NCBI RefSeq assembly: GCF_000425145.1
Contig: NZ_AULF01000029.1
Span: 1-64,000, forward strand
DNA from: Pedobacter glucosidilyticus DSM 23534
Lineage (GTDB): Bacteria; Bacteroidota; Bacteroidia; Sphingobacteriales; Sphingobacteriaceae
Direction: 5' to 3'
Length of the DNA: 64,000 nt
This document shows positions 28,228 through 60,172 of the stretch, piece after piece. Numbering within the stretch: the first letter of the stretch is position 1; every line of letters starts with the position of its first letter. The notes beneath the pieces are model-generated. The model was not told the origin of the DNA. It was given only the letters and a program-made list of their open reading frames with translations, and did not search any database. The translations under genes and the position numbers were made by a program.

Positions 28228-28358
28228 TTGGTTAAAAATCAAAAAGACAATTTTATAATTTAGGTTTTTAGAGCAATGTTTAATAGAACATAAGCTCTAA
28301 CTGTATGCAAGATTGAAATTAATATTAAATAATAAGCATGAAAACGATAATTACTTTA

Positions 28359-34212: not shown

Positions 34213-34725
34213 ATTTTTCGTTTAAAAATTTTCTATCATTTGATATTTAAATGAATAGAATAACTGAATAATAGGTTACTATTTTAATTTATAATGGGCT
34301 TTAGAAAATGCAGAGACTAAATGTTTATAATTTTTGATCTTAATTTTCTATCATAAAATTCTTCACTCAATCATTTTAATAAGAACAATTTTACGTTTAT
34401 CCTCAAGTGAATGATTGTACTATAGTATCTAAAAGTTATATATGAGTCCTAAAACTATAATCCTTAAGTAACTACATCATGAACTTTAATTCCCAATCAG
34501 AAAGGGTTAAGCAAAGGCATAAATAAATATCTTAGTAGAGGATAAGTTACTGTTTAACAATCATCAATTTGATTGAGGACTATATTATGCTTACTTAAGT
34601 TTAGAAATATTTTATACAAACCAGATTCTAATTAAAAGCGGCATTAAAAGTCCTTCTCTAATGGAAAAATACAATTGCCCTCAAAATTTTTAAAAATATC
34701 TAACCAATTCTTTCTGTTTCAGGTC
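34213..34725. other. Intergenic region upstream of the sulfatase gene
   Basis: A 513-bp AT-rich gap without an ORF. It contains the promoter/operator cassette at 34385-34449 and a leader of about 170 nt between it and the sulfatase start. The remaining part up to the RbsD-like gene shows no hairpin or repeat. Confidence 0.4.
34385..34449 (-). promoter_or_regulatory. HTCS-type promoter/operator of the sulfatase gene
   Basis: Written on the plus strand: ACAATTTTACGTTTATCCT (34385-34403), 10 bp, ATTGTACTATAGTAT (34414-34428), 6 bp, GTTATATATGAGTCC (34435-34449). The 19-bp first block is identical to that at 40879-40897. In gene direction the order is distal half-site, proximal half-site 21 bp apart, then TAAAATTG, which resembles the -7 box TAnnTTTG. 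No -33 TTG is present at the proper distance, as expected for an activator-dependent promoter. I infer binding by the AraC domain of the HTCS at 40963-45165. Confidence 0.6.
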
Positions 34726-35298
34726 TTAAGGATGAAATCTCATATTAGTTCTTAAATTATTCTCTTTTTCAGTGGTCCAGTATTTACAGTCCAATTGTAT
34801 AAATACCGAAGAATAGGGTATTACCTCATCTGTTTTTAAAACAAGCACCTTAAACAATTTTGAAGCTTTATCTATATTCACAAAAACAGAGTCATGCAGC
34901 ATGCTTTGGGGCTGATACTTCCCAATACTTTTTAATAAGGCAGCTCGGTAATCACCTATATTTTCAACTTGTTCTTTGCTAATATAGTTGAGCTCTTTAT
35001 CTGTATAGATTAGAGGTTTTACATGGGATGAACTATCTATTTGACTTAAAGTATAATCAAGTACTTTTAGCAAGTCTTGGTGGGTATCAATGGTAACAAT
35101 ACCGGTAGAATTTTGCAAGGGAAAAGCTTTATCAACAATTAAAATCCAATTTCTATGGCCGTATTCTGAAAGCTTCTTTTTAAATTCTAATTTCCATGAT
35201 TCAGAAGTTGATTCCTCTATTTTTGAAGCTTCATTTTTACAAGCAATAGCGCAACTAATTATCAGTAAAAGGGCTAATAAATATTTTAACGTTCTCAT
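34726..35298 (-). CDS. RbsD/FucU-like lipoprotein, possible periplasmic sugar mutarotase
   Basis: A 190-residue lipoprotein: from the start at 35298 the signal peptide MRTLKYLLALLLIISC leads to the lipobox AIAC (Cys about 20). The mature part resembles the RbsD/FucU family: FKKKLSEYGHRNWILIVDKAFP matches the family opening (xGHGDxIxxxDxxFP, with the catalytic His and the Asp kept), and the end SKLFKVLVLKTDEVIPYSSVFIQLD matches the FucU end with its tyrosine. The second His of AHFP is lost. RbsD/FucU proteins are normally cytoplasmic and interconvert anomers of ribose or fucose; an exported lipoprotein version would act on sugars in the periplasm. It starts 4 bp after the GH116-type gene stop, so both are co-translated. 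Homology is by eye. Confidence 0.6.
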   Translation of the reverse strand: MRTLKYLLALLLIISCAIACKNEASKIEESTSESWKLEFKKKLSEYGHRNWILIVDKAFPLQNSTGIVTIDTHQDLLKVLDYTLSQIDSSSHVKPLIYTDKELNYISKEQVENIGDYRAALLKSIGKYQPQSMLHDSVFVNIDKASKLFKVLVLKTDEVIPYSSVFIQLDCKYWTTEKENNLRTNMRFHP

Positions 35299-35302
35299 CA
35301 AA

Positions 35303-37861
35303 TTATAAATTAATTTCTTTTTGCTCACCAGCTTTCAATATAGTGGGCTTTACTTTCGTTGATATATTGCCTAAACTGAATTTTGAGAATGAAAGCGTAC
35401 CATTTAAAACAGTTAATACCGCTTTTTTATTCTCTACTTTACAAGTACCCCAAGCATACCCATTACTCCAAAAATAATTCCCAGGAGTTGAGGTGAATGA
35501 AATACTGCCTTTTACTCCAGAGTACTGAAAACCGCTTAGCGCTAGAATTGAGGCCCAGCTAGCCATGGCTCTACCATAGTGGTGACCACATTCTGGCTCA
35601 TCGTAAGGATTTCTTTTTCTTCCGTCAAATCTATCTCTGATACTCGTAATACATTTTAGTGCATTATCCATTTGGCCTTCATACATCATCCCAACAGCAG
35701 CAGTATATTCAAAACCGGTCATAGATTCAGCAAAATAAGGGAAAGGAACTTTTTCTCGTCCGTTTGGCCAGCTCGCCATAATCAGTCCGCTTTCATTGCC
35801 CATTACGAAGGAGCGCATATTGTTGAATGTAGAAGAGAAATCTGCCACATAATTATATTTCATAATTGATTTTAGCGTGGTATCGATATTCTCCTTTTGA
35901 GCTAGGTAACCCAATCCACAGATATGTGCCATGTATTGTCCAACTAACTGATCAACCAGACAGCCTTTACCCAACTGAAAGTTCGGATTTTTCATTTTAT
36001 TGATATCTATTTTACCTCCGCCTCTTAGTCCTGGAAAAATGTCAGTTGTAGGTAGTTGAATTTTATGGATGTAATATTCTCCATTGAAAAGGTTTGCATC
36101 TGTCCATGCGCTTCCTTTTTTAAACAGCATATTACACTTTTTGGCAAAGGCATCATCTTTTAAAAATTTAGCCATTTCTTCCGCAGCCCTTAGTGCTCCT
36201 AAATACCAAAATTGCATTTGTGGGTTTGGTCCATAATACTCAACATCCATGGTATTATGCTGGCATCCTTCCATCACACCATCTACATCACCATCCCATC
36301 CACCTTTTACCCAAGCAAAAGCTAAGGCATTTTTTACCTTAGGCCAATTAGCTTTCAAAAATTGGTTATCACCCGATAACTGCCATTCTCTATAAAACTT
36401 CATGATGGTACCCATTTGCCCATCGGCAGCGGCTATTGAGCCTTTAGATGCTTCTGATAAGGGTAAATCTGCCCTAAAAGCCATAAAACCATTATCTCTA
36501 GAGGCATAATTAAATTCTACATCCCTCATAGTTTTTGCCAATTCACCATAAAGGAAAGGAGTTGCTACTTCATAGTTCCATACATGGGTACAGGAACCTT
36601 TACAAGAACCAAATTCATCCATCACACCTTCCCATGCCATCATGTGTCCATCTTTTATCCTAAATACAGTTTGAGAACGTAGCGTACTGAGGTTAAAAAG
36701 TGCTGCTTCTTTTACAACTAAGGGTAAGGAAGAATTGATAAATGCATTTAAAAAGAGCTTTGTCTTTTGCTTTAAAGTAGGGATTTGTGGGATAACTTTT
36801 TCTGCCACATCCCAAGCATTTGCATATTTGGTGCTGTAATAATTACCTACAACGGTTTTTGACCATGCAAATCTATTGGGGAAATTCCAAGTGATATAAA
36901 ACTGAAAGGTTTCGGTACTGTTGGGTGCTATCTCTTTTTTAACCGCCAGAGATGCCATAGGATCATTATCATTTAATTTGATTTTGTCGGTTAGTTCGCC
37001 ATCTACGCTAAAATCGTCCCAGAAATCTAGAGTAGAAAGCCCCACCCAGCCGTCGGCTAAAGAAGATCTACGGTAACTTACTCCAGATTTTTCATCGGTT
37101 AGCAAACCAATGGTACCAAAAGCAGGATCAGCTTTATTTACACTGTCAGAGTACATATAAATACCGCTAAACTTTCCATTGTCTTTAAAAGTATTTTGGT
37201 TTTGTTTTGCACCATCAGGAATAAAGTCTCCTTTCCAATCACGATGATAATTGCTGCCATCTCTTCCCACAAAATTGCGCATAGACCCACAAACAGAAAC
37301 TGTCATAGGCTTTGATGTTAAGTTTGTAACCTGATAGGTAAGTACAGCAATTGGAAGTCCGCTTGCATCTGCATCTCCAGGAACTAAAGGGTTAAACCCG
37401 ATGATTTTAACTTTTAATGGCAAATTAGGGTCTGATAAGTTAACCATCCCTACAGGATAAGAAGCATCAAAACTCGCATTTGCAAATCTTGGGAAACCAT
37501 GCTGATTAACGGGCCTGCCTTCGTAATGCTGATATTCAGTATCAGCAAAAGGGCCAATGAGCGCTCTAGTGACAGGTTTTTCACCGGCAGGCTGCATAAA
37601 AATAGCAAAGAAAGGAGCGTTGTTTCCGGCAGTTACAGTGCTGTAGCCAATCCCAGGCTTATTCATGATCTGCCAATCACGCAGCTCTCCACGTCCTCCT
37701 AAAGAAACCGTACCAGTACCAATACCACCTAAAGGAAGTGCAATATTTAGGAGGTGATTTTGGTCGTAATGCTTTAAAATAGGCCAGTCGTCTTTATCTT
37801 GAGCCCTAAGTTGTAGACCGTAAAAAATTATGAATAGTGATACAAGACTCTTTATGTTCAT
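35303..37861 (-). CDS. GH116-type glycoside hydrolase (DUF608 family)
   Basis: An exported enzyme of 852 residues (signal peptide about 1-20) of the GH116 / bile-acid beta-glucosidase-like type. The N-terminal beta-sandwich opens with LPLGGIGTGTVSLGGRGELRDWQI, and the C-terminal (alpha/alpha)6 barrel contains CTHVWNYEVATPFLYGELA (candidate nucleophile Glu) and CQHNTMDVEYYGPNPQM with the candidate acid/base Asp (codon 36245-36247). The family cleaves beta-glucosides, beta-xylosides or beta-N-acetylglucosaminides with retention; which one applies here is open. The start at 37861 is chosen for the signal peptide; a start five codons earlier is open. The RbsD-like lipoprotein follows after 4 bp. 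Confidence 0.87.
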   Translation of the reverse strand: MNIKSLVSLFIIFYGLQLRAQDKDDWPILKHYDQNHLLNIALPLGGIGTGTVSLGGRGELRDWQIMNKPGIGYSTVTAGNNAPFFAIFMQPAGEKPVTRALIGPFADTEYQHYEGRPVNQHGFPRFANASFDASYPVGMVNLSDPNLPLKVKIIGFNPLVPGDADASGLPIAVLTYQVTNLTSKPMTVSVCGSMRNFVGRDGSNYHRDWKGDFIPDGAKQNQNTFKDNGKFSGIYMYSDSVNKADPAFGTIGLLTDEKSGVSYRRSSLADGWVGLSTLDFWDDFSVDGELTDKIKLNDNDPMASLAVKKEIAPNSTETFQFYITWNFPNRFAWSKTVVGNYYSTKYANAWDVAEKVIPQIPTLKQKTKLFLNAFINSSLPLVVKEAALFNLSTLRSQTVFRIKDGHMMAWEGVMDEFGSCKGSCTHVWNYEVATPFLYGELAKTMRDVEFNYASRDNGFMAFRADLPLSEASKGSIAAADGQMGTIMKFYREWQLSGDNQFLKANWPKVKNALAFAWVKGGWDGDVDGVMEGCQHNTMDVEYYGPNPQMQFWYLGALRAAEEMAKFLKDDAFAKKCNMLFKKGSAWTDANLFNGEYYIHKIQLPTTDIFPGLRGGGKIDINKMKNPNFQLGKGCLVDQLVGQYMAHICGLGYLAQKENIDTTLKSIMKYNYVADFSSTFNNMRSFVMGNESGLIMASWPNGREKVPFPYFAESMTGFEYTAAVGMMYEGQMDNALKCITSIRDRFDGRKRNPYDEPECGHHYGRAMASWASILALSGFQYSGVKGSISFTSTPGNYFWSNGYAWGTCKVENKKAVLTVLNGTLSFSKFSLGNISTKVKPTILKAGEQKEINL

Positions 37862-38217
37862 TTGATTATATATCATTGGTTTCTAATAGTCCATTAATTT
37901 ATCAGACCATTGGTAGTTTGTAACTAGTTTCTGTAAGTTTAAAATCAAGATTCAGTCATGCTGGCCTTTTTCCCATCGGCGCAGATGATACGATATTCAA
38001 GGAGCTTAAAAAACTAGTCTGAATTTCTTTTCCTTATGTTGCCTTTGTCTATGTTTAGTAGATAAGTTTTGAAATATTTTAAGCTTATTAACAATCTTAT
38101 TTCTTCTAATTTCTAAATGAACAACAGGCTTAATTACTTAATTATAGAAACTAATTATCCTTTAAAGAAGGAGGTTTTTAAAATCAAATTTATTCATATA
38201 AGGTGTTTCAAAAACAA
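37862..38217. other. Intergenic region upstream of the GH116-type gene
   Basis: A 356-bp AT-rich gap. It must hold the promoter of the GH116-type/RbsD-like pair. TTTGTAACTAGTTTCT at 37917-37932 resembles the HTCS half-site with one inserted base, but the paired half-site and -7 box are not at the right distances. No ORF or strong hairpin seen. Confidence 0.3.
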
Positions 38218-39477
38218 CTAAAGTGAAGCTAATACTTCAATTGCTTTAGTCCTAAACTGTTCTGAAGTTGGATAGGCATTATTCTTTTGCTTTTCTTCCT
38301 TTAGATAATTATTCATTTGTTGATAAAAACTCTGATGCAAATGGTACAACCTTGTTTTTTCCCCTTGTTCATTAATCAATGACATCTGCTTAGACGCTTT
38401 GGTAACATCATCATACTCGTTATTATACATTTGCCAATGCAGTGCAAAAGGTATATTTAGCTCAAATGATATTTTCATGATTTCTTTGCTTTCATCAAAT
38501 TGTTGTTGGAAAGTAGCAGGTCTTGATGCGTCAGCCTGATAACCGTATTCTCCTATAAATACTCTTCTAGAAAATGGGAGTGCAGATTTAGGTTGAAGTT
38601 TTGATTCTAAATAATTAAAAATAGCAGTTAAGTCGGTCTTTTTTCTAGCATAGCTTTTATCCTTGATAGCTTCATAACTAGAATATGATATTAAATCTAC
38701 ATTTACCTGAGGTATAACCGATTGTGCAACGCAAGGTTGACCATTCATGCCTTTCTCAACCAAATTAGCCTCTATATAATGATACATATAAACATTTTGT
38801 GATGTGCTTGCTGCCTTTGCATCATCAATAGCTTTTTGTCTTATCTGAAACCACTTAGCCATATTGTTTAAAACAGCCGGAGATGGTGTTACATTACGGT
38901 CGTAATTAGGAATTAATAACCAATCACCTTCCCAGTTTCCAATTAAAAATGTTTTTCCTGAATTGTTGTACCTATTAAGGATATAGGTGGCAAAATTGTA
39001 CATTTCATCATATAAAATTTTCTCATTTGCTCGCGTAATAGTGCTTTTCCAGTCAACATTTGTTAAAGTATGAACCCAAAAGAAAATGTATTTGAAATCC
39101 AAATCACATGCTATTTTGTAGGCTGCATTATTTGCAAAAAGATCTAATGTAGTTTTACTAGCAATTGTCTCTCTGATTCCGTAAGTTTCAGGAGAGTTTT
39201 TACCCAAAGAAATTTTAAGAATGTTAGAGCCCATCTCTCTCACTTTTTGAGCTTGCTCTATTAAGCCATTACTGTTTGTTAATTTATAACTTCCTGAAAT
39301 AGCATGGGTACCTAGTATGAAATTATAAGGCTCACGTTCAACAAATAAATCTTTAAGAATTACTTTTTTTTCTTCCTCAGTGCCAATTTTCTTGCATGAG
39401 AATAATACCATCGTTACTGCTAACATTACTGTTGCAAGTAATTGTGTGCTATTGTTAATGAGATAATTTCGTTTCAT
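38218..39477 (-). CDS. TIM-barrel-like lipoprotein, candidate glycoside hydrolase (copy 2)
   Basis: A 419-residue lipoprotein (lipobox VLFSC, Cys about 28) paralogous to the exported protein at 28359-29582. It keeps all shared blocks: GNWEGDWLL (candidate acid/base Glu, codon 38929-38931), MYHYIEANLVEKGMNGQP, NVDLISYSSY, RVFIGEYGY (candidate nucleophile Glu, codon 38548-38550) and ALHWQMYNNE. These fit strands 4 to 8 of a clan GH-A barrel. The copy is anchored to a membrane, whereas copy 1 has an ordinary signal peptide. It lies 50 bp downstream of the T9SS protein gene on the same strand and probably shares the HTCS-type promoter at 40879. Enzyme activity is an inference. Confidence 0.68.
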   Translation of the reverse strand: MKRNYLINNSTQLLATVMLAVTMVLFSCKKIGTEEEKKVILKDLFVEREPYNFILGTHAISGSYKLTNSNGLIEQAQKVREMGSNILKISLGKNSPETYGIRETIASKTTLDLFANNAAYKIACDLDFKYIFFWVHTLTNVDWKSTITRANEKILYDEMYNFATYILNRYNNSGKTFLIGNWEGDWLLIPNYDRNVTPSPAVLNNMAKWFQIRQKAIDDAKAASTSQNVYMYHYIEANLVEKGMNGQPCVAQSVIPQVNVDLISYSSYEAIKDKSYARKKTDLTAIFNYLESKLQPKSALPFSRRVFIGEYGYQADASRPATFQQQFDESKEIMKISFELNIPFALHWQMYNNEYDDVTKASKQMSLINEQGEKTRLYHLHQSFYQQMNNYLKEEKQKNNAYPTSEQFRTKAIEVLASL

Positions 39478-39527
39478 TAAGTTTAATTTTAATTAATAAT
39501 CAGGCTGTTATGAAAGTAAGAGAATCA

Positions 39528-40823
39528 TTATTTCAGAAACTTTTGGTTAATGATTTCACTTTCTGTGTTATAGCTTAAAATATGTATTCCGTTTTGAAGT
39601 GTAGCAGGTAAAGAAAACGTATTGTAGCCTTTATTTACTTCAACAAAGGTTTCTGCTAATTTTCTTCCTGAGATATCAAAAAGCTGCAATTTACCTTTTG
39701 TTTTATTTGCTGATGAAAGTGTGATTTTTACATCTGACGGATTTGCGTAAACAGAAAGCTGTGAGGCGGCAATTTTTGAATTTACAGAAATCACCTCTGA
39801 TTCAGATGTTTTACCATCAAAATCATGTTGTATTAATTTGTAATAATTAGTTCCGGCAAATGGGTTGTCATCTACTAAACTATAGTTTTTTACGCTTGTG
39901 CTATTGCCAGCACCGTCAACTTTAGCTACTGCCGTAAATTTTTTACCATCTGCAGAACGCAATACTTCAAAGTAATCATTATCTTGCTCAGAAGCAGTTT
40001 CCCAGTTTAATAAAACATTTTTATCAACCGCTTTAGCACTGAAAGAGGTTAGACTTATGGGTAAAGTGGTAGGTAATGAGGTGATAGTTATATCATCAAA
40101 GTCAAAAGTTCCAGCTAACGTTTGACCAGGTATGGTAAATTTAAAACTTGATAGAGTGGATGCTGTTGCAGAAGCAGTCGCCTCATTTACTTCTAAATTA
40201 TTACCAACCCAAATATCAAATCTATCGTCGCCAACGGTTGCTATTGTTGAACCATCAGGAGCAATATATGATTTTGAAGCACCAGAATTGTTCGCAACAA
40301 GAGTAATGGTTTGAGTTCCAGTGTAAAGTGTTCCCACTGGTGTTGTGGCCCCATTACCTGATACAAACCAACTATTTACTGTAGTTGATGAGTGTGTTAT
40401 TGCTATTCTGCTATGAAAATTTGTTCCAACAACAGCATCTCCTGTTATTGTGCTTCCAATTAAAAAATTCACATTGGGTGAAGTTTGAAAAAGGCTAGCA
40501 TTTGAAACTGTATAGTTAAATTTACATTGAACTAAGTCTATGTTGGCACTTCCAAATCCGCTGGTACGAATCGCATAAAAAGGATTATTACTAGCAGACC
40601 CCGCTGTTGTCTTAACTACTCTTAATGCATTATTGGTTATTGATGGGGTAGAAGTAGTGGTATTACCACTAAATATAGCTGTAAATTTGTTAGCTGCTGA
40701 ACCATCAGCATAATCTGTTAGCGTACTTGATGCACTAAAATCCTGACTAAATAAGGTTGTTTGTGCATTAGCTTTTATTCCGAAATAGAATACAAGTGCA
40801 GAGATAAGTAAAGTTTTTTTCAT
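39528..40823 (-). CDS. T9SS-secreted protein, first gene after an HTCS-type promoter
   Basis: A 431-residue exported protein: signal peptide (about 1-20, ending ANAQT), an N-terminal beta-sandwich-like domain (about 21-255, beginning TLFSQDFSASS, of the kind seen in carbohydrate-binding or lectin-like modules), a FnIII-like segment (about 256-345; LTSFSAKAVDKNVLLNWETAS) and a type IX sorting domain (about 350-431). The last two parts closely resemble those of the protein at 18679-21948, while the N-terminal part differs. It is the first gene after the promoter/operator at 40879-40943, so it is probably induced with the PUL. Binding of the target glycan outside the cell is a reasonable guess; the N-terminal domain is not one I can name. 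Confidence 0.75.
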   Translation of the reverse strand: MKKTLLISALVFYFGIKANAQTTLFSQDFSASSTLTDYADGSAANKFTAIFSGNTTTSTPSITNNALRVVKTTAGSASNNPFYAIRTSGFGSANIDLVQCKFNYTVSNASLFQTSPNVNFLIGSTITGDAVVGTNFHSRIAITHSSTTVNSWFVSGNGATTPVGTLYTGTQTITLVANNSGASKSYIAPDGSTIATVGDDRFDIWVGNNLEVNEATASATASTLSSFKFTIPGQTLAGTFDFDDITITSLPTTLPISLTSFSAKAVDKNVLLNWETASEQDNDYFEVLRSADGKKFTAVAKVDGAGNSTSVKNYSLVDDNPFAGTNYYKLIQHDFDGKTSESEVISVNSKIAASQLSVYANPSDVKITLSSANKTKGKLQLFDISGRKLAETFVEVNKGYNTFSLPATLQNGIHILSYNTESEIINQKFLK

Positions 40824-40878
40824 TTTTTTAGGATTAATTGGTACGGTTTATATTAAAAAAAAGTGTTTTTTAATGAAT

Positions 40879-40943
40879 ACAATTTTACGTTTATCCTAAA
40901 ATGAGTTATTGTACTATAGTATTTAAATATTATATACTAGTCC
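40879..40943 (-). promoter_or_regulatory. HTCS-type promoter/operator of the T9SS protein gene
   Basis: Plus-strand reading: ACAATTTTACGTTTATCCT (40879-40897), 10 bp, ATTGTACTATAGTAT (40908-40922), 6 bp, ATTATATACTAGTCC (40929-40943). First block and proximal half-site are identical to those at 34385-34428; the distal half-site is a relative. It lies 56 bp before the T9SS protein start and 20 bp past the HTCS gene stop. The conservation of spacing as well as sequence makes chance unlikely. Confidence 0.62.
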
Positions 40944-40962
40944 TAAAACATCAAGAAGAGGG

Positions 40963-43900
40963 TTAATTTAACGGTAACTTGTGGTTTGCCCTATATTCTG
41001 CTGGTGAGCAATTATACTTCTTTTTGAATTCTCTGTAGAAATAAGATAGGTTGCTAAAGCCTGTTTTATAAAATATTTCTAAAACTGTGAGCTCAGAATT
41101 TTTTAATAATTCAGAAGCTTGTTGTAAACGAATACTTTTAATTAATTCTCCAGGTGTCATATTAGACAAAGCTTTGAGCTTTTTATAGAAGTTGGCCTTG
41201 CTCATCCCTAGCTTATTTTCAAGATAAACGGCATCTAAACTTTCGTCGTCCATTTTCTCTTCTATCAAAGCGATGGTTTGCTCTAAAAATTCTTTGTCAT
41301 TATGTTTCATTCCAACATCAGGAATTTTTATTGGAGATTGATCTTTATGAAACAAATCATGTAATCTTTGCTGATATTCCAATAATTTTCTAACCCTTAA
41401 TAATAAATTTTCTGTATGAAATGGTTTCGGGAGGTAAGCATCGGCACCAGCCTCATAACCTTCATTTTGCTGATCAATAGTTCCTCTGGCAGATAAAATG
41501 ATAAATGGTATGTGGCATGTTTCTGGGGTGTTTTTAATGATATTACAAACTTCTAAGCCACTCATGTCGGGCATCATAATATCACTTATGATAAGGTTAG
41601 GAATTATTTTTCTTACAATATCTAATGCTTTTTTACCATTCTCGGCCTCGTAAACATTGTAAATATCTTTTAAAACATCTTTTAATAGGTACCTGATTGA
41701 AGGTTCATCCTCAATTATTAAAATACTTTTCTTCTCTTGATTTTCAACGCTATTTAGAATTGCTTGTTTATTATTATCTAATATAATTTTATCTTCAGTA
41801 CCATCTTGTTCAATAGCCATAGAAGTAAGTAGGTAAGATGGTGTATCTAAACTATCTTTGCTGTGCTTCAATTTCTCTTCCTCGGCAGGAATGTAATTAA
41901 GCGGTAATTGTACAGTGAAAAAAATCCAATTATTTTTTGATGAAACAGCTATTTCTCCGTTTAACAAGTTAACCAGTTCTCTGGTAAATGCTAAACCAAT
42001 TCCCGAGCTTATTTTGCTTTGTTGTGTATCATCTGCAACAAAAAATCTGTCAAATAAATTAGATAATTCTTCTTCAGATAAATTATATCCAGAATTTGAT
42101 ACCTTAATTTCTAATTGCTGATTTACTAGATTTTTAACTACAGAAAATTGAATAGTATTACCTGCAAGAGTATGTTTAAAAGCGTTTGAAAGTAAATTAA
42201 AGATGATTTTCTCTAGCTTGTCCTTATCTATCCAAATTTCTATATCAGGTTCTATTTGTGCACTATATTGAAATTTGTTTTGATCATTTACCTGCAAAAA
42301 AAGTTCAGAAATATTAGTTAAAAGTGTACTAATATTCACAAAACTATAATGGTTTTTTAAATGCCCTGCTTCGGCTTTTCTAAACTCTAAAAGCTGATAA
42401 ACCAAGTAGTTTAATCGAGAAGCCTGTTGATTTACAATGGAAAGAAAATAATTATGACCTTGTTTGGTATCTGTTTTTGCTTTAAGAAAATAGCGTTCAA
42501 GAGAACCCAATATAAGTGTTAACGGCGTTTGCAATTCATGAGCAATATTGGTAAAGAAATTAAGTTGTTCTTGATGAACTTCTTCGTCTTTCTCTCTCAA
42601 CATGTGCTCCATAGATAACTCATATTGCATTTTCACCTTATTTCTTCTATATCTATAAAAAACATAAAGCCCTGATGCGGCTATAACAAAATAGCCTAGA
42701 AAAGCTATCCATGTAAGCCAAAAATATTGCTTTATTTGAAGGTTAAAGGCTATAACTTCGTTAGTCCAAACGCCACTTTCATTAGACCACTTTAATTTCA
42801 AGGTATAATTACCGGGTGGAATATTACTGTAAGTGATTTTATTGTCTTGGCTTAAATAATGCCACACTTTATCATTTCCTTCTAAAAAATAGGTATAATT
42901 AGATTTTTCAGAACCTGTATAATCTATTGCTTTAATTCTAAGCTCGAAAAAGTTATCGCCCGGAGATAAAATATATTCTTTTGGACGAGCATTATTTTTC
43001 GCACTTAAAATGTTAAACTGTGATACTTCTTCTGACAATCCAGCCATTTGAATTTCACTAAGCAGCAAATTAGGCTGATAATTATTGGTTTTTATATTCT
43101 TTGGGAGAAAATAATTAAAGCCATAAATCCCACCAAAAAACAGATAGCCTTCACTGTTTTTCCAAACAGCGTTATCACTAAATTCATCACTTTGTAGGCC
43201 ATCTGCTGCTTTAAACCTTACTATTTGTAAAGATTTTGGATTAATCTTCACCAAACCTTTATTTGTACTTGCCCAAATAAAACCTTCGTTATCTTGCGTA
43301 ATGGTATGAACGGTATTATTTGGTAAACCATTCTCTTTAGTGATTTTCTTAAAAACAGGCTTGTCTTTAATTAAGTCCTTTTCTTCAATATAATTCAGTC
43401 CATAGCTGGTGCCTATCCAAAGTTTATTGGTTTTATCTTTATATAAGGCCAGAACATCATTATTTGAAAGACTATTTTTATAAGAAAAGGCGTTGATGGT
43501 CCTAAAAGTCTTTGTTTTTTTGTTAAAGATGCTCAATCCACCATATCTACAACCAACATAAAGCTGATTGTTATTGCCGTTCTCTAAAGTATAAATCACA
43601 TTATTACCAGGTCCAAATCTATTACCTGTATACGGATATTTTCTTAAGTATTGGATGGTAGGTAAGCCAGTCTTATTTCTTTTTATTTTAACATGGATTA
43701 ATCCAAAAGTTTCTAATCCTAACCAAACAGAGCTGTCTCTATCGATTAAAATACTATGAACAGAGTTAAATGAGTCGTATTTATCATGTTCTAAGATTTT
43801 GTCCCAAGTGTACCATTTTTTTTGTTGCTGGTCATACAAGGTAACGCCTAATGCATCAGAACCTACATAAACAAAATTATCTTTCCCTTTTTGGATAGAA

Positions 43901-45165
43901 TAAACACAGTTATCTAATAAGCCATAAACAGAATAAAACGTTTTGATGGAACTGCTAGAGGCATTAGGTTTACCCAAATTGCTTATGGTGATGATACCAT
44001 TTCCTTTAGTTCCAATCCATAATTGATGATCAACTTCATTAAAGGCTCTAATAGGAGTATTGATTTTTCCTCCTCCTGGCAATTGCTTTACCAAACCAAA
44101 ATGATTTTGCTTTTCGGCAATTTTAACTACACCACTTCCATCAGTACCAATCCAAAGTATGTTTTGAGTGCCTACATATAAAGAAGTAATTCTTGTATTT
44201 TGTAAAGGCTGCAGCTCATCTTCTAAATTATTAGAAGGCTTAAAATCAGTATTATATTCAGCTAGTCCTTTAGAAGACCAAGCTAGGATATAGTTGTTTT
44301 TAAAGAAAGTAATGGCTTTTAAAGCATTTGGTAAAACAGCTACTTGTTTAAAATTAAGTTGCTCATTTGCTTTAAACAGTTGTTTATTAGAGGTAGTATA
44401 AAATATAGTGCTGTTGACATCATAAACATCTACTACATCATCTGGCAGGTTTAAATTTTTAATTTTGGTAAACTTATTGTTTCGCTTTTGATAAGCCTGC
44501 AAACCTCCGCCTCTGGTAACAATCCATAATCTATTAGAATGATCACTTATAATTTTAGATATTTTCCCTTGCTTAAATTCAGGTAAATAGCATCTCTTAA
44601 AGTTAGAGGTTTTGGTATCGTAATAGTTAACAAACGAATCAGTTTTCTGGATACCGTAAATAGTTCCATCTAAATCCTTTGCTAAAAGAAAGCCCTTGTT
44701 TATAACCTTATCATTAAGGTCTTTACTATAAAAATAGTGTTCAAAATTCCCGGTTAACTTATCATACTTAGATATGCCTTCAATTGTTGCAATCCATATA
44801 TTCTTGTTTTTATCTTCCTTTATCTGATAAATTATATTGCTTCTGATACTTTTTTTAGTATTGCTTTGGCTGTATTCAAATATGTGAAAAGAGGAGCCAT
44901 CGTACATACTTAGGCCGTCCCAAGTTCCAAACCACATCAGTTTATCAGAATCTTGATAGATGGAATTTAAACAGCTGTTAGATAAACCTGTACTATTGTC
45001 TAATTGTTGGCTAAAGAATTTAACCTGAGCAGAGCTAGTCTGTTGTATGAGTAGCAGAAAAAGCAGCAATAGAGTGCCAATAGATATTTTACGTCTAAAA
45101 ATATCTTTGTAAGAAGAAGTAATCCTCTCACAGATTGTTATTAAAAATCTACAGAAAAAAAGCAA
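40963..45165 (-). CDS. Hybrid two-component system regulator (HTCS)
   Basis: A 1400-residue one-protein sensor, kinase and transcription factor, the usual PUL regulator in this phylum. Order: signal/anchor segment (about 27-46), two periplasmic seven-bladed propellers of Reg_prop repeats (about 50-720), a Y_Y_Y domain (about 745-810), a membrane helix (about 815-837), HisKA with phospho-acceptor His876 in NIAHELQTPLT, HATPase_c (about 985-1095; SNAFKHT, SGIGLAFTREL), a receiver domain with Asp1195 in LIISDIMMPDMSG, and an AraC-type helix-turn-helix (about 1300-1395, LSYFYREFKKKYNCSPAEYR). The periplasmic part should bind an oligosaccharide from the target glycan and the AraC part should bind the cassettes at 34385, 40879 and 52104. 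A member of the family by every landmark; the ligand is unknown. Confidence 0.95.
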   Translation of the reverse strand: MLFFCRFLITICERITSSYKDIFRRKISIGTLLLLFLLLIQQTSSAQVKFFSQQLDNSTGLSNSCLNSIYQDSDKLMWFGTWDGLSMYDGSSFHIFEYSQSNTKKSIRSNIIYQIKEDKNKNIWIATIEGISKYDKLTGNFEHYFYSKDLNDKVINKGFLLAKDLDGTIYGIQKTDSFVNYYDTKTSNFKRCYLPEFKQGKISKIISDHSNRLWIVTRGGGLQAYQKRNNKFTKIKNLNLPDDVVDVYDVNSTIFYTTSNKQLFKANEQLNFKQVAVLPNALKAITFFKNNYILAWSSKGLAEYNTDFKPSNNLEDELQPLQNTRITSLYVGTQNILWIGTDGSGVVKIAEKQNHFGLVKQLPGGGKINTPIRAFNEVDHQLWIGTKGNGIITISNLGKPNASSSSIKTFYSVYGLLDNCVYSIQKGKDNFVYVGSDALGVTLYDQQQKKWYTWDKILEHDKYDSFNSVHSILIDRDSSVWLGLETFGLIHVKIKRNKTGLPTIQYLRKYPYTGNRFGPGNNVIYTLENGNNNQLYVGCRYGGLSIFNKKTKTFRTINAFSYKNSLSNNDVLALYKDKTNKLWIGTSYGLNYIEEKDLIKDKPVFKKITKENGLPNNTVHTITQDNEGFIWASTNKGLVKINPKSLQIVRFKAADGLQSDEFSDNAVWKNSEGYLFFGGIYGFNYFLPKNIKTNNYQPNLLLSEIQMAGLSEEVSQFNILSAKNNARPKEYILSPGDNFFELRIKAIDYTGSEKSNYTYFLEGNDKVWHYLSQDNKITYSNIPPGNYTLKLKWSNESGVWTNEVIAFNLQIKQYFWLTWIAFLGYFVIAASGLYVFYRYRRNKVKMQYELSMEHMLREKDEEVHQEQLNFFTNIAHELQTPLTLILGSLERYFLKAKTDTKQGHNYFLSIVNQQASRLNYLVYQLLEFRKAEAGHLKNHYSFVNISTLLTNISELFLQVNDQNKFQYSAQIEPDIEIWIDKDKLEKIIFNLLSNAFKHTLAGNTIQFSVVKNLVNQQLEIKVSNSGYNLSEEELSNLFDRFFVADDTQQSKISSGIGLAFTRELVNLLNGEIAVSSKNNWIFFTVQLPLNYIPAEEEKLKHSKDSLDTPSYLLTSMAIEQDGTEDKIILDNNKQAILNSVENQEKKSILIIEDEPSIRYLLKDVLKDIYNVYEAENGKKALDIVRKIIPNLIISDIMMPDMSGLEVCNIIKNTPETCHIPFIILSARGTIDQQNEGYEAGADAYLPKPFHTENLLLRVRKLLEYQQRLHDLFHKDQSPIKIPDVGMKHNDKEFLEQTIALIEEKMDDESLDAVYLENKLGMSKANFYKKLKALSNMTPGELIKSIRLQQASELLKNSELTVLEIFYKTGFSNLSYFYREFKKKYNCSPAEYRANHKLPLN

Positions 45166-45510: not shown

Positions 45511-47034
45511 TTATCTGATATTAAATGTTAAGTTAACTAACTGATTATATATACCTCCTTGGAAATCTCTAGCCTCTAAAATTGCAGTATCTGTAATTGG
45601 AGCAGTGCCATTGTATAAGTACTTTACTACACCTTTGGCTATCTGCTCTTGTGTAAAAGAAGAGTTTACCAGTAAGGGGATACCATTTAAAACTAAGAAT
45701 CCGTTTTGAGGAGCTTGAGTTAGCGTATAAGAAATGTTTTTATCAGCAGTACCTTGAAATTTAAGCTCATTTAAAGACAATACTTTAACTGGGTTTGAAA
45801 CCTGAACTTCTAATGGATTATTTGCTGCTGGGCTAATAATACTTACTGGTGGACTGCTAAGTATCAATCTAGATCTTAGTGCTCCGTTGTTAAATTCTTT
45901 AGAGCGAAAATGTGAATTTAGGTCTTGAACAACAGCGCCACCAATATTTACAAAGGTTTTATTTTGCGTTAATGCTGCATTATAGAAAGAGGTAATATCA
46001 ATATTTGCCCACGTATTCCTCATGGCTTGAGTTAAGTTTAAACTTCCAATAGCAATAGCACCAAAAGTTGGAGCAGTGACCCAGCTAACTGTACTCTCAT
46101 TCCAATCAATATTTTGGTCTTCAAAAAAGTTCATAGTAGTAGCATTTTGAATGGTATTGAAATACATTTCAAGCTTTACAGTTCCAATTCTACCATTAAA
46201 ACGGGGCGCTCTAACGGCATATTGGGTTAAGGTTCTCTTACTAAAACTTGCTGCATTACCTGTAGCACCAAACAATTTAGTTTGTACGTCTTGTATACTT
46301 CCATAGTTTAATGTCCTGTTAGCAGTTCCATTCTGAAGGTAGGTATCTTTGGTCACATAAATGGTGTCAGTTAAAATAGAAACATTTGCTGGATTTACTT
46401 GATCTTGAGGATTTGTTTTAGCTATATAATAAGTGAAACTGTTTACCACATGCGCTACTCCATTAATCATTTCTAGATTCTGAGTTCTAACGCTAGCGTT
46501 GACAGAGCTTGCATTTGGCGATGAATTAACGGTTAATACATATTCATTCCCAGTAGCTATAGAGCGTGTAAGATATAAACTATCATTACTTAAACTAGGG
46601 TATGAATAATTTACGCCCGCTGCTAAGTCAAAAGATCTTACACGGCCTTCAATAATACCATTAAGTAATATGTTTTTTAGAATAATTGGAGGTACATCTT
46701 CTACAAAAGTATAGCCTAAGCCCGTAATAAAGGTTTGCAATACATCATCATTAGGAATAATTACAGTAAGATTTTTTTTAGTATCGTTTAATAAATCTTT
46801 TAAACCTGCCTGTTGTATGGCTTTACCAAATAAACCAATCTTGGTAGGGTCATTTTCATGAAAGTTATTTTCTGATATAAACTCCCATATAGTCTTAGTT
46901 TTAAGGTTTACACCAGCTGAAATATGCTCTACATTTTCATTTTTAAGTAGTGAAAATTTTTCACAAGAGGTGATGCTCATACTGAGTATTACCGTACAGA
47001 TAAAAATCTTTAGATAAGTTATTTTCTTCATCAT
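45511..47034 (-). CDS. Surface lipoprotein: fasciclin domain + DNRLRE-type module + CSPG-like repeat
   Basis: A 507-residue lipoprotein (lipobox SITSC, Cys about 24) in the position where a surface glycan-binding protein is normally found, third gene after susC and susD. Residues about 45-205 form a fasciclin domain (GLKDLLNDTKKNLTVIIPND, ending EMINGVAHVVNSFTY). Residues about 220-395 form a DNRLRE/CBM96-like beta-sandwich (DTYLQNGTANRTLNYGS, VKLEMYF, WNESTVSW, WANIDITSF). The end (about 425-507) resembles a chondroitin-sulfate-proteoglycan repeat (LTQAPQNGFLVLNG, SFTQEQIAKGVVKYLYNG). The combination would bind glycan or protein at the cell surface; each assignment is by motif only. Starts 9 bp after susD. 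Confidence 0.72.
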   Translation of the reverse strand: MMKKITYLKIFICTVILSMSITSCEKFSLLKNENVEHISAGVNLKTKTIWEFISENNFHENDPTKIGLFGKAIQQAGLKDLLNDTKKNLTVIIPNDDVLQTFITGLGYTFVEDVPPIILKNILLNGIIEGRVRSFDLAAGVNYSYPSLSNDSLYLTRSIATGNEYVLTVNSSPNASSVNASVRTQNLEMINGVAHVVNSFTYYIAKTNPQDQVNPANVSILTDTIYVTKDTYLQNGTANRTLNYGSIQDVQTKLFGATGNAASFSKRTLTQYAVRAPRFNGRIGTVKLEMYFNTIQNATTMNFFEDQNIDWNESTVSWVTAPTFGAIAIGSLNLTQAMRNTWANIDITSFYNAALTQNKTFVNIGGAVVQDLNSHFRSKEFNNGALRSRLILSSPPVSIISPAANNPLEVQVSNPVKVLSLNELKFQGTADKNISYTLTQAPQNGFLVLNGIPLLVNSSFTQEQIAKGVVKYLYNGTAPITDTAILEARDFQGGIYNQLVNLTFNIR

Positions 47035-47043
47035 TTCTTGATT

Positions 47044-48588
47044 TTATTTGTAAAAATTATTTTGTTCTATCGATGGGTTTAACCTAATCACATTTAAGTT
47101 AATTGGAAATAGGATGTTTTCCGGATTATTTAATCCATTTATTGGTCCCATAACTGATATTGCTTTACCTGTTCTTACCAAATCAAACCACCTTTTGCCT
47201 TCAAAACATAGTTCTTTTTGTCTTTCTTCTAAAATAACATCAATTGCTGCATTTCTTGGAAGTGCCATAAATGCAGCCATTTCAATACTACCCGTTGGAC
47301 CAGTATCAAATTTGTTGTTGGGATTTGGATTATTAATTACATAACCTGTTGGTGAATTTGAATTCGGAGTTTGTATTTCTACAGGTCCAAATGTTCTTTC
47401 TCTAATTCTTTTAAGTAAATTCCAAGCAGCATTTCTATCTCCTTTGGCAATAAAAGCTTCGGCTCTTAGTAACATGATATCTGCCAATCGGTACAATATT
47501 ACATTTTTGTCGTTTTGGGTGTTTCTATCAAAAGTTCCTTTAGGAAATTGTTTAAATATTTGTACGCTAGATCTAAAATTAGTTAAATTCCTTAAATCTG
47601 TTGATGAAAATTTAGAAGCAAAGTTAGCATTGGCTACAAACTGGGCTACACCATCACCACCAGCAAATAAAGCTAATAACCCAGAAGTAGTACCCTCATC
47701 AAAGCTGTATTCAATCTCAAAAATAGATTCCTGACTAAATCCATCAATAAACATTTTAGCATATTCCGTATTATCAATGTCTACTTGTGGCCTGCTTAAA
47801 TAGTCTATTGTAGGATCATATAATGCTGCTAATCTGTATTGTGCGGTATTATCTAGAATATTTCTGGAGAAAATTAATGCGCTATCAACGTTGTTGCGCC
47901 ACATGTAATAGTCAGTAAGAATTGCATCTATTCCTCCTTTGGTTAGCGTAGCTCTGGTTCTTTTAGCATCAGTATAAGATGCTGGTAATAAATCCCTTGC
48001 CTGCAATAAATCTGTCGCAATTTGTGTATAAACTTTCAGAACTTCTGTTCTTGGGGTTTTAAAAGAGTTAATGTCTCCATTATTTAATATAGGCTCGGTA
48101 ATTAAAGGGACATCTCCCCAAACTTTAGTCATCAGTAGATAACAGTACGCTCTTAGGCCCAAAGCTTGACCTAAAACTCTATTATACTCGGTAGTTTGGT
48201 TGGCATATATACCTCTTTCCCTCATTTCTTTTACATTCTTAACAATCAAATTAGCTTGGCTAATCACTCTGTAAAAGTTGGTCCAGTCTGTAATTGCTAA
48301 ATCAGGGTTTAACCTATTTCCTAAAAGTGCTAAGTTGGTTACATTGTCTTCTCTGGGTACGGCAAGCATATCTGCCCTGGCTTCTCCGTATAAAACAAAC
48401 TCTGTATTTAAGGTAGATTGTAGCCTAAAATAAGCTCCACTTAAGGCAGCACTGGCTTGCGAAGGCTCATTCCAGTAATTATCGTAGGCATATTCTGTTA
48501 AAGGGTCACGATCTAAAGCAGATTTACATGAACTAATAACTGCTAAAAGACAGCTTAATCCGGTTAAAAGTTTGATGATATTTTTCAT
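47044..48588 (-). CDS. SusD/RagB-family outer-membrane lipoprotein
   Basis: Glycan-binding lid partner of the SusC transporter encoded 4 bp upstream. 514 residues; lipobox VISSC (Cys about 21), then the SusD opening DRDPLTEYAYDNYWNEPSQASAALSGAY, TPR-like helices (NFYRVISQANLIVKNV) and the C-terminal RagB part with VILYRLADIMLLRAEAFI, ILEERQKELCFEGKRWFDLVRTG (split around residue 455) and the end PIEQNNFYK-like segment. The family binds oligosaccharide at the cell surface and closes over the SusC barrel. Co-transcribed with susC and the fasciclin-type lipoprotein. Confidence 0.95.
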   Translation of the reverse strand: MKNIIKLLTGLSCLLAVISSCKSALDRDPLTEYAYDNYWNEPSQASAALSGAYFRLQSTLNTEFVLYGEARADMLAVPREDNVTNLALLGNRLNPDLAITDWTNFYRVISQANLIVKNVKEMRERGIYANQTTEYNRVLGQALGLRAYCYLLMTKVWGDVPLITEPILNNGDINSFKTPRTEVLKVYTQIATDLLQARDLLPASYTDAKRTRATLTKGGIDAILTDYYMWRNNVDSALIFSRNILDNTAQYRLAALYDPTIDYLSRPQVDIDNTEYAKMFIDGFSQESIFEIEYSFDEGTTSGLLALFAGGDGVAQFVANANFASKFSSTDLRNLTNFRSSVQIFKQFPKGTFDRNTQNDKNVILYRLADIMLLRAEAFIAKGDRNAAWNLLKRIRERTFGPVEIQTPNSNSPTGYVINNPNPNNKFDTGPTGSIEMAAFMALPRNAAIDVILEERQKELCFEGKRWFDLVRTGKAISVMGPINGLNNPENILFPINLNVIRLNPSIEQNNFYK

Positions 48589-48592
48589 GTAA

Positions 48593-51500
48593 TTAAAATT
48601 TAATGTTTAGAGATAGGTTATAAGATCTGGTTCTAGGAAACGAACCATTGTCAACACCAAACCCTAGTGGGTTGTTTCCGGCACTAACCTCTGGATCATA
48701 GCCTGTATAACTACCAAAAGTGAATAGATTTTGAACACTAAAGCCTAAATTAGCAGCGTTTAATCCAATATTTTTTATAGCCTTTGGTGGTAGGTTATAG
48801 CTTAATGCAACATTTTGAACTCTGATAAAAGAACCGTCTTCTACAAACAAGCTACTTACCGAATAATTTCTCATGCGGTCACCTCTTTCTAGTCGTGGAA
48901 CATCGGTTACATCACCTTGCTGTCTCCATCTTCTCAATTGCTTAGTAGAATAATTAACATCAAATTGATTACCATCCAAACGTCTGTTTAAATCGTTAAA
49001 GACATCATTACCAAAAACGGCGTTAATAAATAGGTTTAGGGTAAAGCGTTTGTAAGAAAAAGTGTTTTGAAAGCCACCAAAAGCTTTAGGTGTTGGATTA
49101 CCTATAATTTGCTGGTCATCAATATCAATGATACCATCGTTATTAATATCTTCAAAAATAACGTCACCACCTTTGTATACATCTCCATCAGCCGAACCCC
49201 TTTTATATTGAGAAATTTGTCCATTAGCGTCTATGTAAACATTGTCTTCATCTCGGGCATAAATTCCCAAAGCTTTAAAGCCATAAAAAACACCCACAGC
49301 TTCGCCAACACGGGCCAAACTGAAATTAGTTGGTCTGTAATCTTCATTACCAGGTAATGCGGTAACTTTATTCCTGTTTAAACCAAATGTTACTGTTGAT
49401 GACCACTTAAAGGCTTTATCAATAACTACTCCGTCTACAGATAGCTCAACACCTTTATTACTTAAACTACCGAAATTAAAAGGAATAAAGCTATAACCTG
49501 TTTGGGTAGGTATTTGTACGTTAAACAATAAATCGTTACTGTTTTTAGTGTAGTAATCTGCTGTAAAATTTAGTCGGCCTTTAAAGAAGGATAAATCCGT
49601 ACCTATATCAAGTTGTTTGGTGGTTTCCCATCTTAAATCTGCATTACCTAGAGCATCAGCAGTAATAGAAACTTCACCCAAATAAGAGCCTGCTCTTCCT
49701 AAAGAGCCTTTTGAAGCATAATTAGCAATATTTTGATTTCCGGTGATACCGTAACTCGCTCTTAATTTACCATCGTATAACCAACCTAATTTTTTGCTCC
49801 ATTTTTCTTCAGAAAAACGCCAGCCTCCAGATACCGAAGGGAAATATGAGTTTTGATTAGCAGTTCCAAATCTCGAAGAACCATCTCTTCTCATTAAGAA
49901 AGAAAATAGGTATTTACTTTTATAGTTATAATTTGCTCTGGTAAAATAAGAAAGTAAAACGTTCTCTTGCATACTTTGGTTAAAGGTTGAAATACTTGCC
50001 GAGCCACTAATAGAAGTAATTTGATTGTCGATATTTCCTATCCCCCTAACAAAAGTGCTGTTGGTTTTAAAAATCTGATAAGATTGACCCAATAAAAAAT
50101 TGAAATTATGCTTTTTCTTAATCGTTTTTTTATACGTCAATGTATTTTCATTTACAATTGAAGATCTCATCTCAGGACGATAATCACTGAAAATGGATTG
50201 TGCTGATAAGTTAGTGGATAAAATAGGAGGGTTGTAGAAAAAGCTCTCTGTACTACTATAATCTAATGAAATATTAGTTCTAAAATCTAACCCTTTCAAT
50301 AAAGTAGCTGTAAATTCCTGTTTACCTAAAATACGCCATCTTTTGATATCATTGGTCATGTATAAAGCTTGCGCTAAAGGATTTGGTCTGGAAGATTCAA
50401 ACAAAGGAATAATATTTCCCGTAATAGGATCATAAGGGCTATAAACCGGAAAACTGCCTAAATACCTAAAAATGATACTATTATCTTGTCTGTTATAATT
50501 AAAGTTTGAAAGATTAAAGTTAGTAGAGCCTTTAATAAATTTACTGATATTATAATTTACTTTGGCATTACCAAAAACTTGTTTGTACTGTGTTTCTATA
50601 ACAATGGGTGCTAAATCTCTGTAACCAGCGCTAATAAAATAATCTACATTTTTCTCTTTAGAAGTACCACTTACACTTAAATCTAGCTTTTGCTGAAAGG
50701 TTTCGCGATACATGATATCCTGATAATCATAAGAATCACGATAATATGGGTGTAAAGAATCATATAAAGGAATACGTGTAGGAGGTAAGCCCGTAGCATT
50801 AATAGCAGCATCATAATTTGCACTTCTAAACTGTGTAGCGTTAAGAACTCCGATTTTTCTAGTTATATCAACAAAACTACTATTGTAGGCTAAATTAATC
50901 GTTGGCTTAGTACTTGTTCCTGTTTTAGTAGTAATTAATATAACGCCGTTAGATGCTCTTGAACCATAGATAGATGCGGTTCCTGCATCTTTTAATACTT
51001 CAATAGACGCAATATCTGCTGGGTTGATGTCATTTAAAGGACTAAAAGAGGCACCATCATTTAAGGATTCAAAGGTGTCATTATTTACAGGTATTCCATC
51101 TATGATAAATAAAGGCTGACTTGCCCCGTTAATGGAAGAAACACCTCTTAAGGTAATATTGGCACCAGCCCCAGGCTCTCCAGAATTTGTAGTGATTTGC
51201 AAACCTGCTATTTTACCTTGTAAGCTGGTATTGATAGAACCGCCTGCAAATTGATCTAGCTGATCGGCTTTTATAGAGCTTGCCGAACCCGTGATTTCAC
51301 TTTTAGCCTGTGTTCCGTATCCTACAACTACTACCTCATTTAAATTGGTGTAATTTTCACTTAACTGAACATCAATGATGGATTGATTACCAATTTTTCT
51401 TTCCGTGGTTTTAAAACCTAAATAAGAGAATACCAAAATGGCATTTTCATCCGAAACTTTTATGCTGTATTTACCCTCAACATTAGTTTGTGAAGTAGTA

Positions 51501-51763
51501 TTGGTGTTTTTTACTTTTACAACTACCCCAGGTAAGGCTTCTCCGTTTTGATCGGTTACTTTACCTGTAACTGTAAGCTGTTTTTGTGTTTGCTTGAAGC
51601 TTTCTGATTGCTTTGAAAGAATAATTTGATCATATCCAAAGGCATTAGTCTGCAAGATAATTGCTGTAATTAAAACAAGTGTAAGTTTTACCATGGGCAA
51701 ACTTCTTTTAAAGGAGGTATAATTTTGCTTTTTACGTATAGTGCTTCTACCATAGAAATTCAT
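48593..51763 (-). CDS. SusC/RagA-family TonB-dependent outer-membrane transporter
   Basis: An outer-membrane TonB-dependent transporter of 1056 residues that imports oligosaccharides captured by SusD. It has the N-terminal carboxypeptidase-like domain (about 65-140; VTGKVTDQNGEALPGVVVKV), the SusC signature NEVVVVGYGTQ (about 152), the plug domain (SSIKADQLDQF, LRGVSSINGASQPLFIIDG, ASIEVLKDAGTASIYGSRA) and a 22-strand barrel ending YNLSLNIKF. The start at 51763 has a long basic N-terminus; a second Met at residue 24 gives a compact signal peptide, and both are possible. It lies 10 bp downstream of the decayed ROK fragment and about 340 bp downstream of the HTCS-type promoter, so the fragment is transcribed as its leader. 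Confidence 0.95.
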   Translation of the reverse strand: MNFYGRSTIRKKQNYTSFKRSLPMVKLTLVLITAIILQTNAFGYDQIILSKQSESFKQTQKQLTVTGKVTDQNGEALPGVVVKVKNTNTTSQTNVEGKYSIKVSDENAILVFSYLGFKTTERKIGNQSIIDVQLSENYTNLNEVVVVGYGTQAKSEITGSASSIKADQLDQFAGGSINTSLQGKIAGLQITTNSGEPGAGANITLRGVSSINGASQPLFIIDGIPVNNDTFESLNDGASFSPLNDINPADIASIEVLKDAGTASIYGSRASNGVILITTKTGTSTKPTINLAYNSSFVDITRKIGVLNATQFRSANYDAAINATGLPPTRIPLYDSLHPYYRDSYDYQDIMYRETFQQKLDLSVSGTSKEKNVDYFISAGYRDLAPIVIETQYKQVFGNAKVNYNISKFIKGSTNFNLSNFNYNRQDNSIIFRYLGSFPVYSPYDPITGNIIPLFESSRPNPLAQALYMTNDIKRWRILGKQEFTATLLKGLDFRTNISLDYSSTESFFYNPPILSTNLSAQSIFSDYRPEMRSSIVNENTLTYKKTIKKKHNFNFLLGQSYQIFKTNSTFVRGIGNIDNQITSISGSASISTFNQSMQENVLLSYFTRANYNYKSKYLFSFLMRRDGSSRFGTANQNSYFPSVSGGWRFSEEKWSKKLGWLYDGKLRASYGITGNQNIANYASKGSLGRAGSYLGEVSITADALGNADLRWETTKQLDIGTDLSFFKGRLNFTADYYTKNSNDLLFNVQIPTQTGYSFIPFNFGSLSNKGVELSVDGVVIDKAFKWSSTVTFGLNRNKVTALPGNEDYRPTNFSLARVGEAVGVFYGFKALGIYARDEDNVYIDANGQISQYKRGSADGDVYKGGDVIFEDINNDGIIDIDDQQIIGNPTPKAFGGFQNTFSYKRFTLNLFINAVFGNDVFNDLNRRLDGNQFDVNYSTKQLRRWRQQGDVTDVPRLERGDRMRNYSVSSLFVEDGSFIRVQNVALSYNLPPKAIKNIGLNAANLGFSVQNLFTFGSYTGYDPEVSAGNNPLGFGVDNGSFPRTRSYNLSLNIKF

Positions 51764-51773
51764 ACTTCTAAAT

Positions 51774-52061
51774 TTAGTTTGGTTTATAATTAGGTTTATT
51801 ATACTTGATTTCTTCCAAGTAACTCAAAGTCATTCTTTTCGCATTTAAGCAGAAAACTGTGTTGAATTGGGCTACATTTTTAACCATCAAAATACCTTTA
51901 TGGCCAATCGTAAGACCAAGTATAGTGAAATTAAAATGTTCGCAATCCTTGTTTATGCTAACTTCTCTTATGAGTTGCTGCTGATTGTTATAAACAAGCT
52001 TTGCAATAATGTGCGAACCGCCAACATCTGCGTTCATCACAACATGAGGTGCGCTTTTCAT
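51774..52061 (-). pseudogene. Truncated ROK-kinase fragment in the susC leader
   Basis: A 95-codon open frame that begins MKSAPHVVMNADVGGSHIIAKLVY, clearly matching the start of the ROK kinase at 27349-28227 (MESTSHIVMSADVGGSHITTALVN). After NKDC it skips about 30 residues of the full gene, resumes with EHFNFTILG...KGILMVKNVAQFNTVFCLNAKRM (matching QHFGIAMPG...FNSLYGLNVKEM), and then ends in unrelated sequence. It lacks the catalytic Asp, the phosphate-2 region and the whole C-terminal domain, so it cannot be a working kinase. Homology continues upstream through AGCAATGTT and ACATAAACTTTA (52102-52130 versus 28272-28300). It stands between the HTCS-type promoter and susC, ending 10 bp before it. 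It might still be translated as a leader peptide. Confidence 0.8.
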
Positions 52062-52103
52062 TTGATTTGAAATTTTCTTTATCGGTTTATTTGGTTTATA
52101 AAG

Positions 52104-52167
52104 CAATGTTAGACAAAACATAAACTTTAGTATTGTACTAGAGTCTATTTTGATTGTACCAAAGTCT
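52104..52167 (-). promoter_or_regulatory. HTCS-type promoter/operator of the susC operon
   Basis: Plus-strand reading: CAATGTTA (52104-52111, -7-like; TAACATTG in gene direction), 20 bp, ATTGTACTAGAGTCT (52132-52146), 6 bp, ATTGTACCAAAGTCT (52153-52167). Here both half-sites are strong (12 of 15 identical) and exactly 21 bp apart, the clearest of the three copies. The spacing from -7-like box to proximal half-site is 20 bp, as at 34385 and 40879. Its flank is homologous to the ROK upstream region at 28272-28300, where the operator is degenerate. Confidence 0.68.
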
Positions 52168-56394: not shown

Positions 56395-56398
56395 AGCA

Positions 56399-59245: not shown

Positions 59246-59253
59246 TCTAAAAA

Positions 59254-60159: not shown

Positions 60160-60172
60160 GATTGTAATTTTA

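Follow-up and report, generated by a model that had tools for sequence, protein, structure and literature searches.

Three copies of a probable HTCS operator-promoter cassette in a Pedobacter PUL

Organization of the PUL and its cassettes

The window, the whole 64-kb stretch of Pedobacter glucosidilyticus DNA that was analysed, contains a PUL whose relevant genes all lie on the minus strand. Among them is an ORF of 1400 aa that unites a propeller sensor, a kinase, a REC domain and an AraC-type HTH in one polypeptide, the composition characteristic of an HTCS. The phosphorylation-motif residues are present, a His within NIAHELQTPL in HisKA and an Asp within ISDIMMPD in REC, and the gene shares its PUL with susC and susD, as expected of an HTCS. 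Three cassettes, numbered here as copies 1–3, precede PUL genes as follows.

40963..45165, minus strand: HTCS, the proposed activator (Pfam: Reg_prop, Y_Y_Y, HisKA, HATPase_c, Response_reg, HTH_18)
32650..34212, minus strand: sulfatase, first gene behind copy 1; then GH2, orf428, ROK kinase and MFS transporter
39528..40823, minus strand: T9SS-tailed protein, first gene behind copy 2; then orf419, GH116 and RbsD-like
48593..51763, minus strand: SusC, behind copy 3 and a 95-codon ORF; then SusD and a CBM96/fasciclin protein

The far end of the PUL carries a gene for a Fic-domain protein with a C-terminal winged HTH (24222-25352). A second PUL-like cluster (56816-63749), encoding GH3, DUF5017, SusD and a 657-aa ORF without Pfam match, gave no cassette of the type described here; between the two PULs, on the strand opposite to theirs, a HigB-like toxin gene is followed by an HTH (HigA-like) gene (56074-56755, plus strand).

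The window contains exactly three instances of CAATnTTA-N20-ATTGTACTAnAGTnT; a scan with CAATNTTA-N20-ATTGTACTANAGTNT returns three exact matches (34386-34428, 40880-40922 and 52104-52146), with zero in 100 shuffles. A preliminary description of this DNA had placed the cassettes at 34385, 40879 and 52104; the last of these starts is correct, and at the other two the pattern begins one base later. The run of 19 identical bases that it noted in copies 1 and 2, ACAATTTTACGTTTATCCT, does begin at 34385 and 40879. Comparison of the copies also bears out the identity of the proximal half-sites of copies 1 and 2, the 21-bp step from the start of the first half-site to that of the second in all three copies, and the presence of two strong half-sites in copy 3, the second of which has one mismatch. 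The component parts are listed below.

34386..34393, minus strand: copy 1 -7-like box, TAAAATTG on the gene strand; sulfatase ATG 174 bp on; 8/8 conserved in G010
34414..34428, minus strand: copy 1 proximal half-site, ATACTATAGTACAAT on the gene strand; same as copy 2; 15/15 conserved in G010
34435..34449, minus strand: copy 1 distal half-site, GGACTCATATATAAC on the gene strand; weak by consensus; 14/15 conserved in G010
40880..40887, minus strand: copy 2 -7-like box, TAAAATTG; ATG of the T9SS-tailed protein 57 bp on
40908..40922, minus strand: copy 2 proximal half-site; 15/15 conserved in G010 and G012
40929..40943, minus strand: copy 2 distal half-site, GGACTAGTATATAAT; 13/15 and 14/15 conserved
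52104..52111, minus strand: copy 3 -7-like box, TAACATTG; leader ORF ATG 43 bp on
52132..52146, minus strand: copy 3 proximal half-site, AGACTCTAGTACAAT
52153..52167, minus strand: copy 3 distal half-site, AGACTTTGGTACAAT; 15/15 conserved in G010 and G012

All three cassettes point at PUL genes, as had been described, except that copy 3 meets the 95-codon ORF (51774-52061) first and susC second. The proximity of the HTCS gene to the middle copy is likewise real, but the gene ends 19 bp from copy 2, which therefore lies behind the HTCS gene rather than in front of it. A scan before the HTCS gene found no cassette.

Anatomy of the cassettes

Each cassette presents a direct repeat with about 21 bp between sites upstream of a PUL operon, the arrangement expected of an HTCS-type operator. 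In copies 1 and 2 the distal half-site is a poor match, differing from the consensus at 6 and 5 of 13 fixed positions, respectively, yet 13–14 of its 15 bases are retained in orthologs.

The boxes of copies 1 and 2 (both TAAAATTG) and of copy 3 (TAACATTG) each depart from the sigma-ABfr -7 element, TAnnTTTG, at one of six fixed bases, in every case the normally near-invariant T-8, which is replaced by A (TAnnATTG). Because homologous cassettes behind other HTCS genes carry an exact TAnnTTTG, the variant probably works as a weak -7 element. The sigma-ABfr -33 TTTG element is missing, as the preliminary description had remarked, and the end of the proximal half-site stands in its place; a -33 element is hardly visible in F. 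johnsoniae as well (PMC6847099). The T-8-to-A change was considered as a general mark of HTCS promoters and set aside, as it is not clearly enriched (pos4A z 1.9 vs 4.9 for exact boxes) and the control likewise has a pos4A z of 3.2.

The 20-bp spacers (34394-34413, 40888-40907 and 52112-52131) are identical at 17–20 of 20 positions between species, a conservation beyond what the HTCS model requires that leaves room for a further factor. Within the window, the spacers of copies 1 and 2 agree at 16/20 positions and that of copy 3 is unlike both (7–8/20).

Distribution and conservation of the cassettes

The 15-bp half-site has three exact matches in the 4.02-Mb genome, all inside one 18-kb part of the PUL. 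Across the whole genome, none of the other half-sites with one mismatch is accompanied by a partner 21 bp off and a -7 box, and these sites were accordingly rejected as distant regulon members. One match with two mismatches outside the window (position 82850, within G000:C5:82839-82892, G000 being the source genome) was also set aside because its ATTGTATAAAAGTTT pair is inverted, not direct. Related matches to this inverted pair occur in G010, G012 and G013, and it represents an element different from the cassette.

In a comparison set of 60 genomes, close orthologs of the HTCS are found only in G010 (96%) and G012 (92%). Exact cassettes number three in the source genome, three in G010 and one in G012, which has another with two mismatches; the remaining genomes of the 60 contain no exact cassette, only scattered matches with two or three mismatches at about the rate of a reversed-pattern control. 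The predicted operator is thus retained in the two other genomes with a close HTCS ortholog and absent where the ortholog is absent. This is the related-genome search that had been proposed at the outset, and the exact cassettes it recovers stand before the same PUL genes. Phylogenetic footprints additionally stop sharply at the distal half-site. Between copy 3 and its G012 counterpart, the half-sites agree at 28/30 positions and the box at 8/8, vs 114/233 in the 233 bp upstream.

Recurrence of the layout at other HTCS loci

More distant homologs of the HTCS include a 71% paralog in G010 and G012 and proteins of 51% (G018), 46% (G036) and 44% (G030) identity. Behind them lie co-directional PUL genes encoding, respectively, a GH3-like protein, a sulfatase, an 829-aa ORF and SusC. 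Directly downstream of the stop codons of these diverged HTCSs, a -7 box is again preceded, at a distance of about 20 bp, by a 21-bp direct repeat of changed half-sites, for example ACTCTAGTACA at the 71% paralog and ATAGTGAAC/ATAGTGTAC in G036 and G030. The weakest case is G018, whose alignment was done by eye. The paralogous PUL in G012 shows the same layout at its susC promoter (L058).

A survey of 60 further HTCS loci, together with genome contig matches, covered promoters behind HTCS genes and those of susC, scoring self-similarity upstream of exact TAnnTTTG boxes with the discovery loci left out (n=25). Self-similarity in these HTCS-linked promoters peaks at 6.40/14 at lag 21, offset 22, vs a grid-wide maximum of 5.32 among 200 shuffles, a comparison that involves mononucleotide shuffles, simple gene calls, phylogenetically non-independent loci and a few matches that are simple repeats. 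Strong individual repeats occur in a minority of HTCS-linked regions, 17 of which reach 9/14 at lag 21, and the repeat lies ~20–22 bp upstream of the -7 box. Other promoters (n=193) give no self-similarity signal. The promoters of the HTCS genes themselves (n=30) show no 21-bp peak, their maximum of 4.97 falling at an unrelated position and being equalled by 144 of 200 shuffles; with the signal absent there, and with no cassette before the HTCS gene of the window, autoregulation was rejected.

Genome distribution, footprints, the layout at diverged homologs and the survey peak together lend good comparative support to the assignment of the cassettes as HTCS operator-promoters, and the HTCS-regulon interpretation of the preliminary description gains by it, since exact cassettes track the HTCS ortholog and the layout recurs at other HTCSs. 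An alternative is that the shared promoter elements serve another regulator, such as an ECF sigma factor, a CRP-like global regulator or another AraC protein encoded elsewhere, and that the link to the HTCS is incidental. In its favour, conservation in the 20-bp spacer is about level with that in the half-sites, so that a different protein may be bound there. However, the exact cassettes follow the presence of the HTCS across the 60 genomes, and the layout reappears with changed half-sites behind other HTCS genes. No other DNA-binding regulator was recognized among the PUL genes scanned between copies 1 and 3, and the rest of the genome yielded none of the sites that a global regulator should have there. 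Control by another regulator is therefore improbable.

Origin of the three copies

Copies 1 and 2 are similar over ~83 bp, spacer included; copy 3 shares only the functional parts with them. Gene order differs among the three species. In G012, the sulfatase operon directly follows orf419 across a gap of ~45 bp, copy 1 is absent, and GH116-RbsD is found on the far side of ROK. In the source genome and G010, GH116-RbsD is located between orf419 and the sulfatase gene, and copy 1 stands just before the latter. On the simplest reading, copy 1 would be a duplicate of copy 2 that retained the sulfatase operon in the regulon once GH116-RbsD intervened, and the duplication looks to have accompanied the change in gene order. 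Loss of copy 1 in G012 is a possible alternative history.

The surroundings of copy 3 point to a different source, involving two further features.

51774..52061, minus strand: 95-codon leader ORF between copy 3 and susC, a decaying remnant of the 5' part of a ROK kinase gene
28289..28330 (boundaries approximate), minus strand: degenerate cassette before the intact ROK gene (27349-28242), homologous to copy 3

The intact ROK gene has a promoter and a 5' end homologous to copy 3 and the beginning of the leader ORF. The leader ORF has a dN/dS of 0.56–0.77, compared with 0.07–0.10 for the intact ROK gene and ~0.05 for susC, and the ROK cassette is degenerate in the source genome and G012 and largely deleted in G010. 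Decay is thus complementary: susC has an intact cassette and a decaying ROK fragment, ROK an intact gene and a decayed cassette. This pattern suggests that susC captured, or else retained, a promoter that had earlier served a ROK gene. A role as a conserved functional peptide was considered for the leader ORF and rejected, since the ORF matches no family and its dN/dS is fairly close to neutral. The final codons of the ORF and the start region of susC are nearly unchanged in the three species and perhaps serve translational coupling.

These histories raise the alternative that the copies are alike by descent only, as duplicated stretches that have yet to diverge and have no operator function, which would account for the ~83-bp match of copies 1 and 2 and for the homology of copy 3 to the ROK upstream region. 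The common ground between copy 3 and the other two copies is, however, confined to half-sites, box and spacing; its cassette has been held in G012 with an upstream flank down to ~50% identity, and the ROK copy, which lies inside an operon, has decayed. Resemblance by descent alone is very improbable.

Proposed mechanism and implications

The cassettes are very probably activator-dependent promoters of the sigma-ABfr type, bound by the HTCS of their own PUL and switching on three operons. The existence of the cassettes, their linkage to the HTCS, their conservation and their geometry emerge from sequence comparison. In the proposed mechanism, the periplasmic sensor of the HTCS would detect an oligosaccharide, after which the kinase would phosphorylate the REC domain. 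The C-terminal AraC domain of the HTCS (40963-45165) would then bind the 21-bp direct repeat, two such domains sitting on the same DNA face with two helical turns between them. The proximal half-site would replace the -33 region, with the proximal AraC domain contacting RNA polymerase at the weak -7 box (TAnnATTG). Three operons would be co-activated: sulfatase-GH2-orf428-ROK-MFS, T9SS protein-orf419-GH116-RbsD and leader-SusC-SusD-CBM96. Binding, activation, operon extents, start sites and ligand are all predictions of this scheme. Repression by the HTCS from the same sites, which overlap the -33 region as with some repressors, is highly improbable, given a weak -7 box that has no -33 element, a direct repeat whose proximal site, like that of AraC-type activators, lies next to where RNA polymerase sits, and the activator role of characterized Bacteroides HTCSs such as BT1754 (PMC11501099).

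Activation through the cassettes might extend to a general rule for Bacteroidota, in which HTCS operators, as two half-sites 21 bp apart, stand at one fixed phase to the -7 box, about 20 bp upstream of it and commonly in the intergenic stretch directly behind the HTCS gene, and regulons grow by copying or capturing a cassette of ~65 bp. This generalization is tentative, its chances falling a little short of even. If the layout is fixed, the recognition sequence and regulon of an HTCS could be read from the stretch behind its gene alone. The operator is known for few HTCSs, so that many binding sequences and target operons would become predictable, and HTCS regulons could be tested one by one in environmental Bacteroidota. 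The window itself illustrates apparent regulon rewiring, with a promoter copy at a change in gene order and a promoter held in common with a kinase gene.

Comparison with known systems

E. coli AraC activates araBAD by way of two half-sites in direct repeat, spaced 21 bp, of which the proximal overlaps the -35 region; the protein senses arabinose directly and also loops DNA. The Pedobacter cassette has the same 21-bp direct repeat, but its predicted AraC-type partner is fused to a membrane kinase and its promoter is of the sigma-ABfr type. Gel shifts show the response-regulator domains of the HTCSs BT4124 and BT4663 binding to susC promoters (PMC11253607); they comprise the same REC and AraC-type domains and were tested experimentally, whereas the Pedobacter HTCS is described from sequence.

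The kind of operator is already known; the proposed duplication history and ROK-promoter ancestry go beyond the preliminary description. Ravcheev et al. 2013 predicted 16 Bacteroides HTCS motifs as direct repeats averaging 21 bp (PMC3878776). The B. thetaiotaomicron regulons of that report likewise place an HTCS in the PUL and two direct-repeat sites ~21 bp apart before susC and other operons; the system described here differs in its Pedobacter host and its half-site. The distance from repeat to -7 box does not appear in the available part of the same report, to which the present analysis adds a value of ~20–22 bp, measured in many HTCS-linked promoters.
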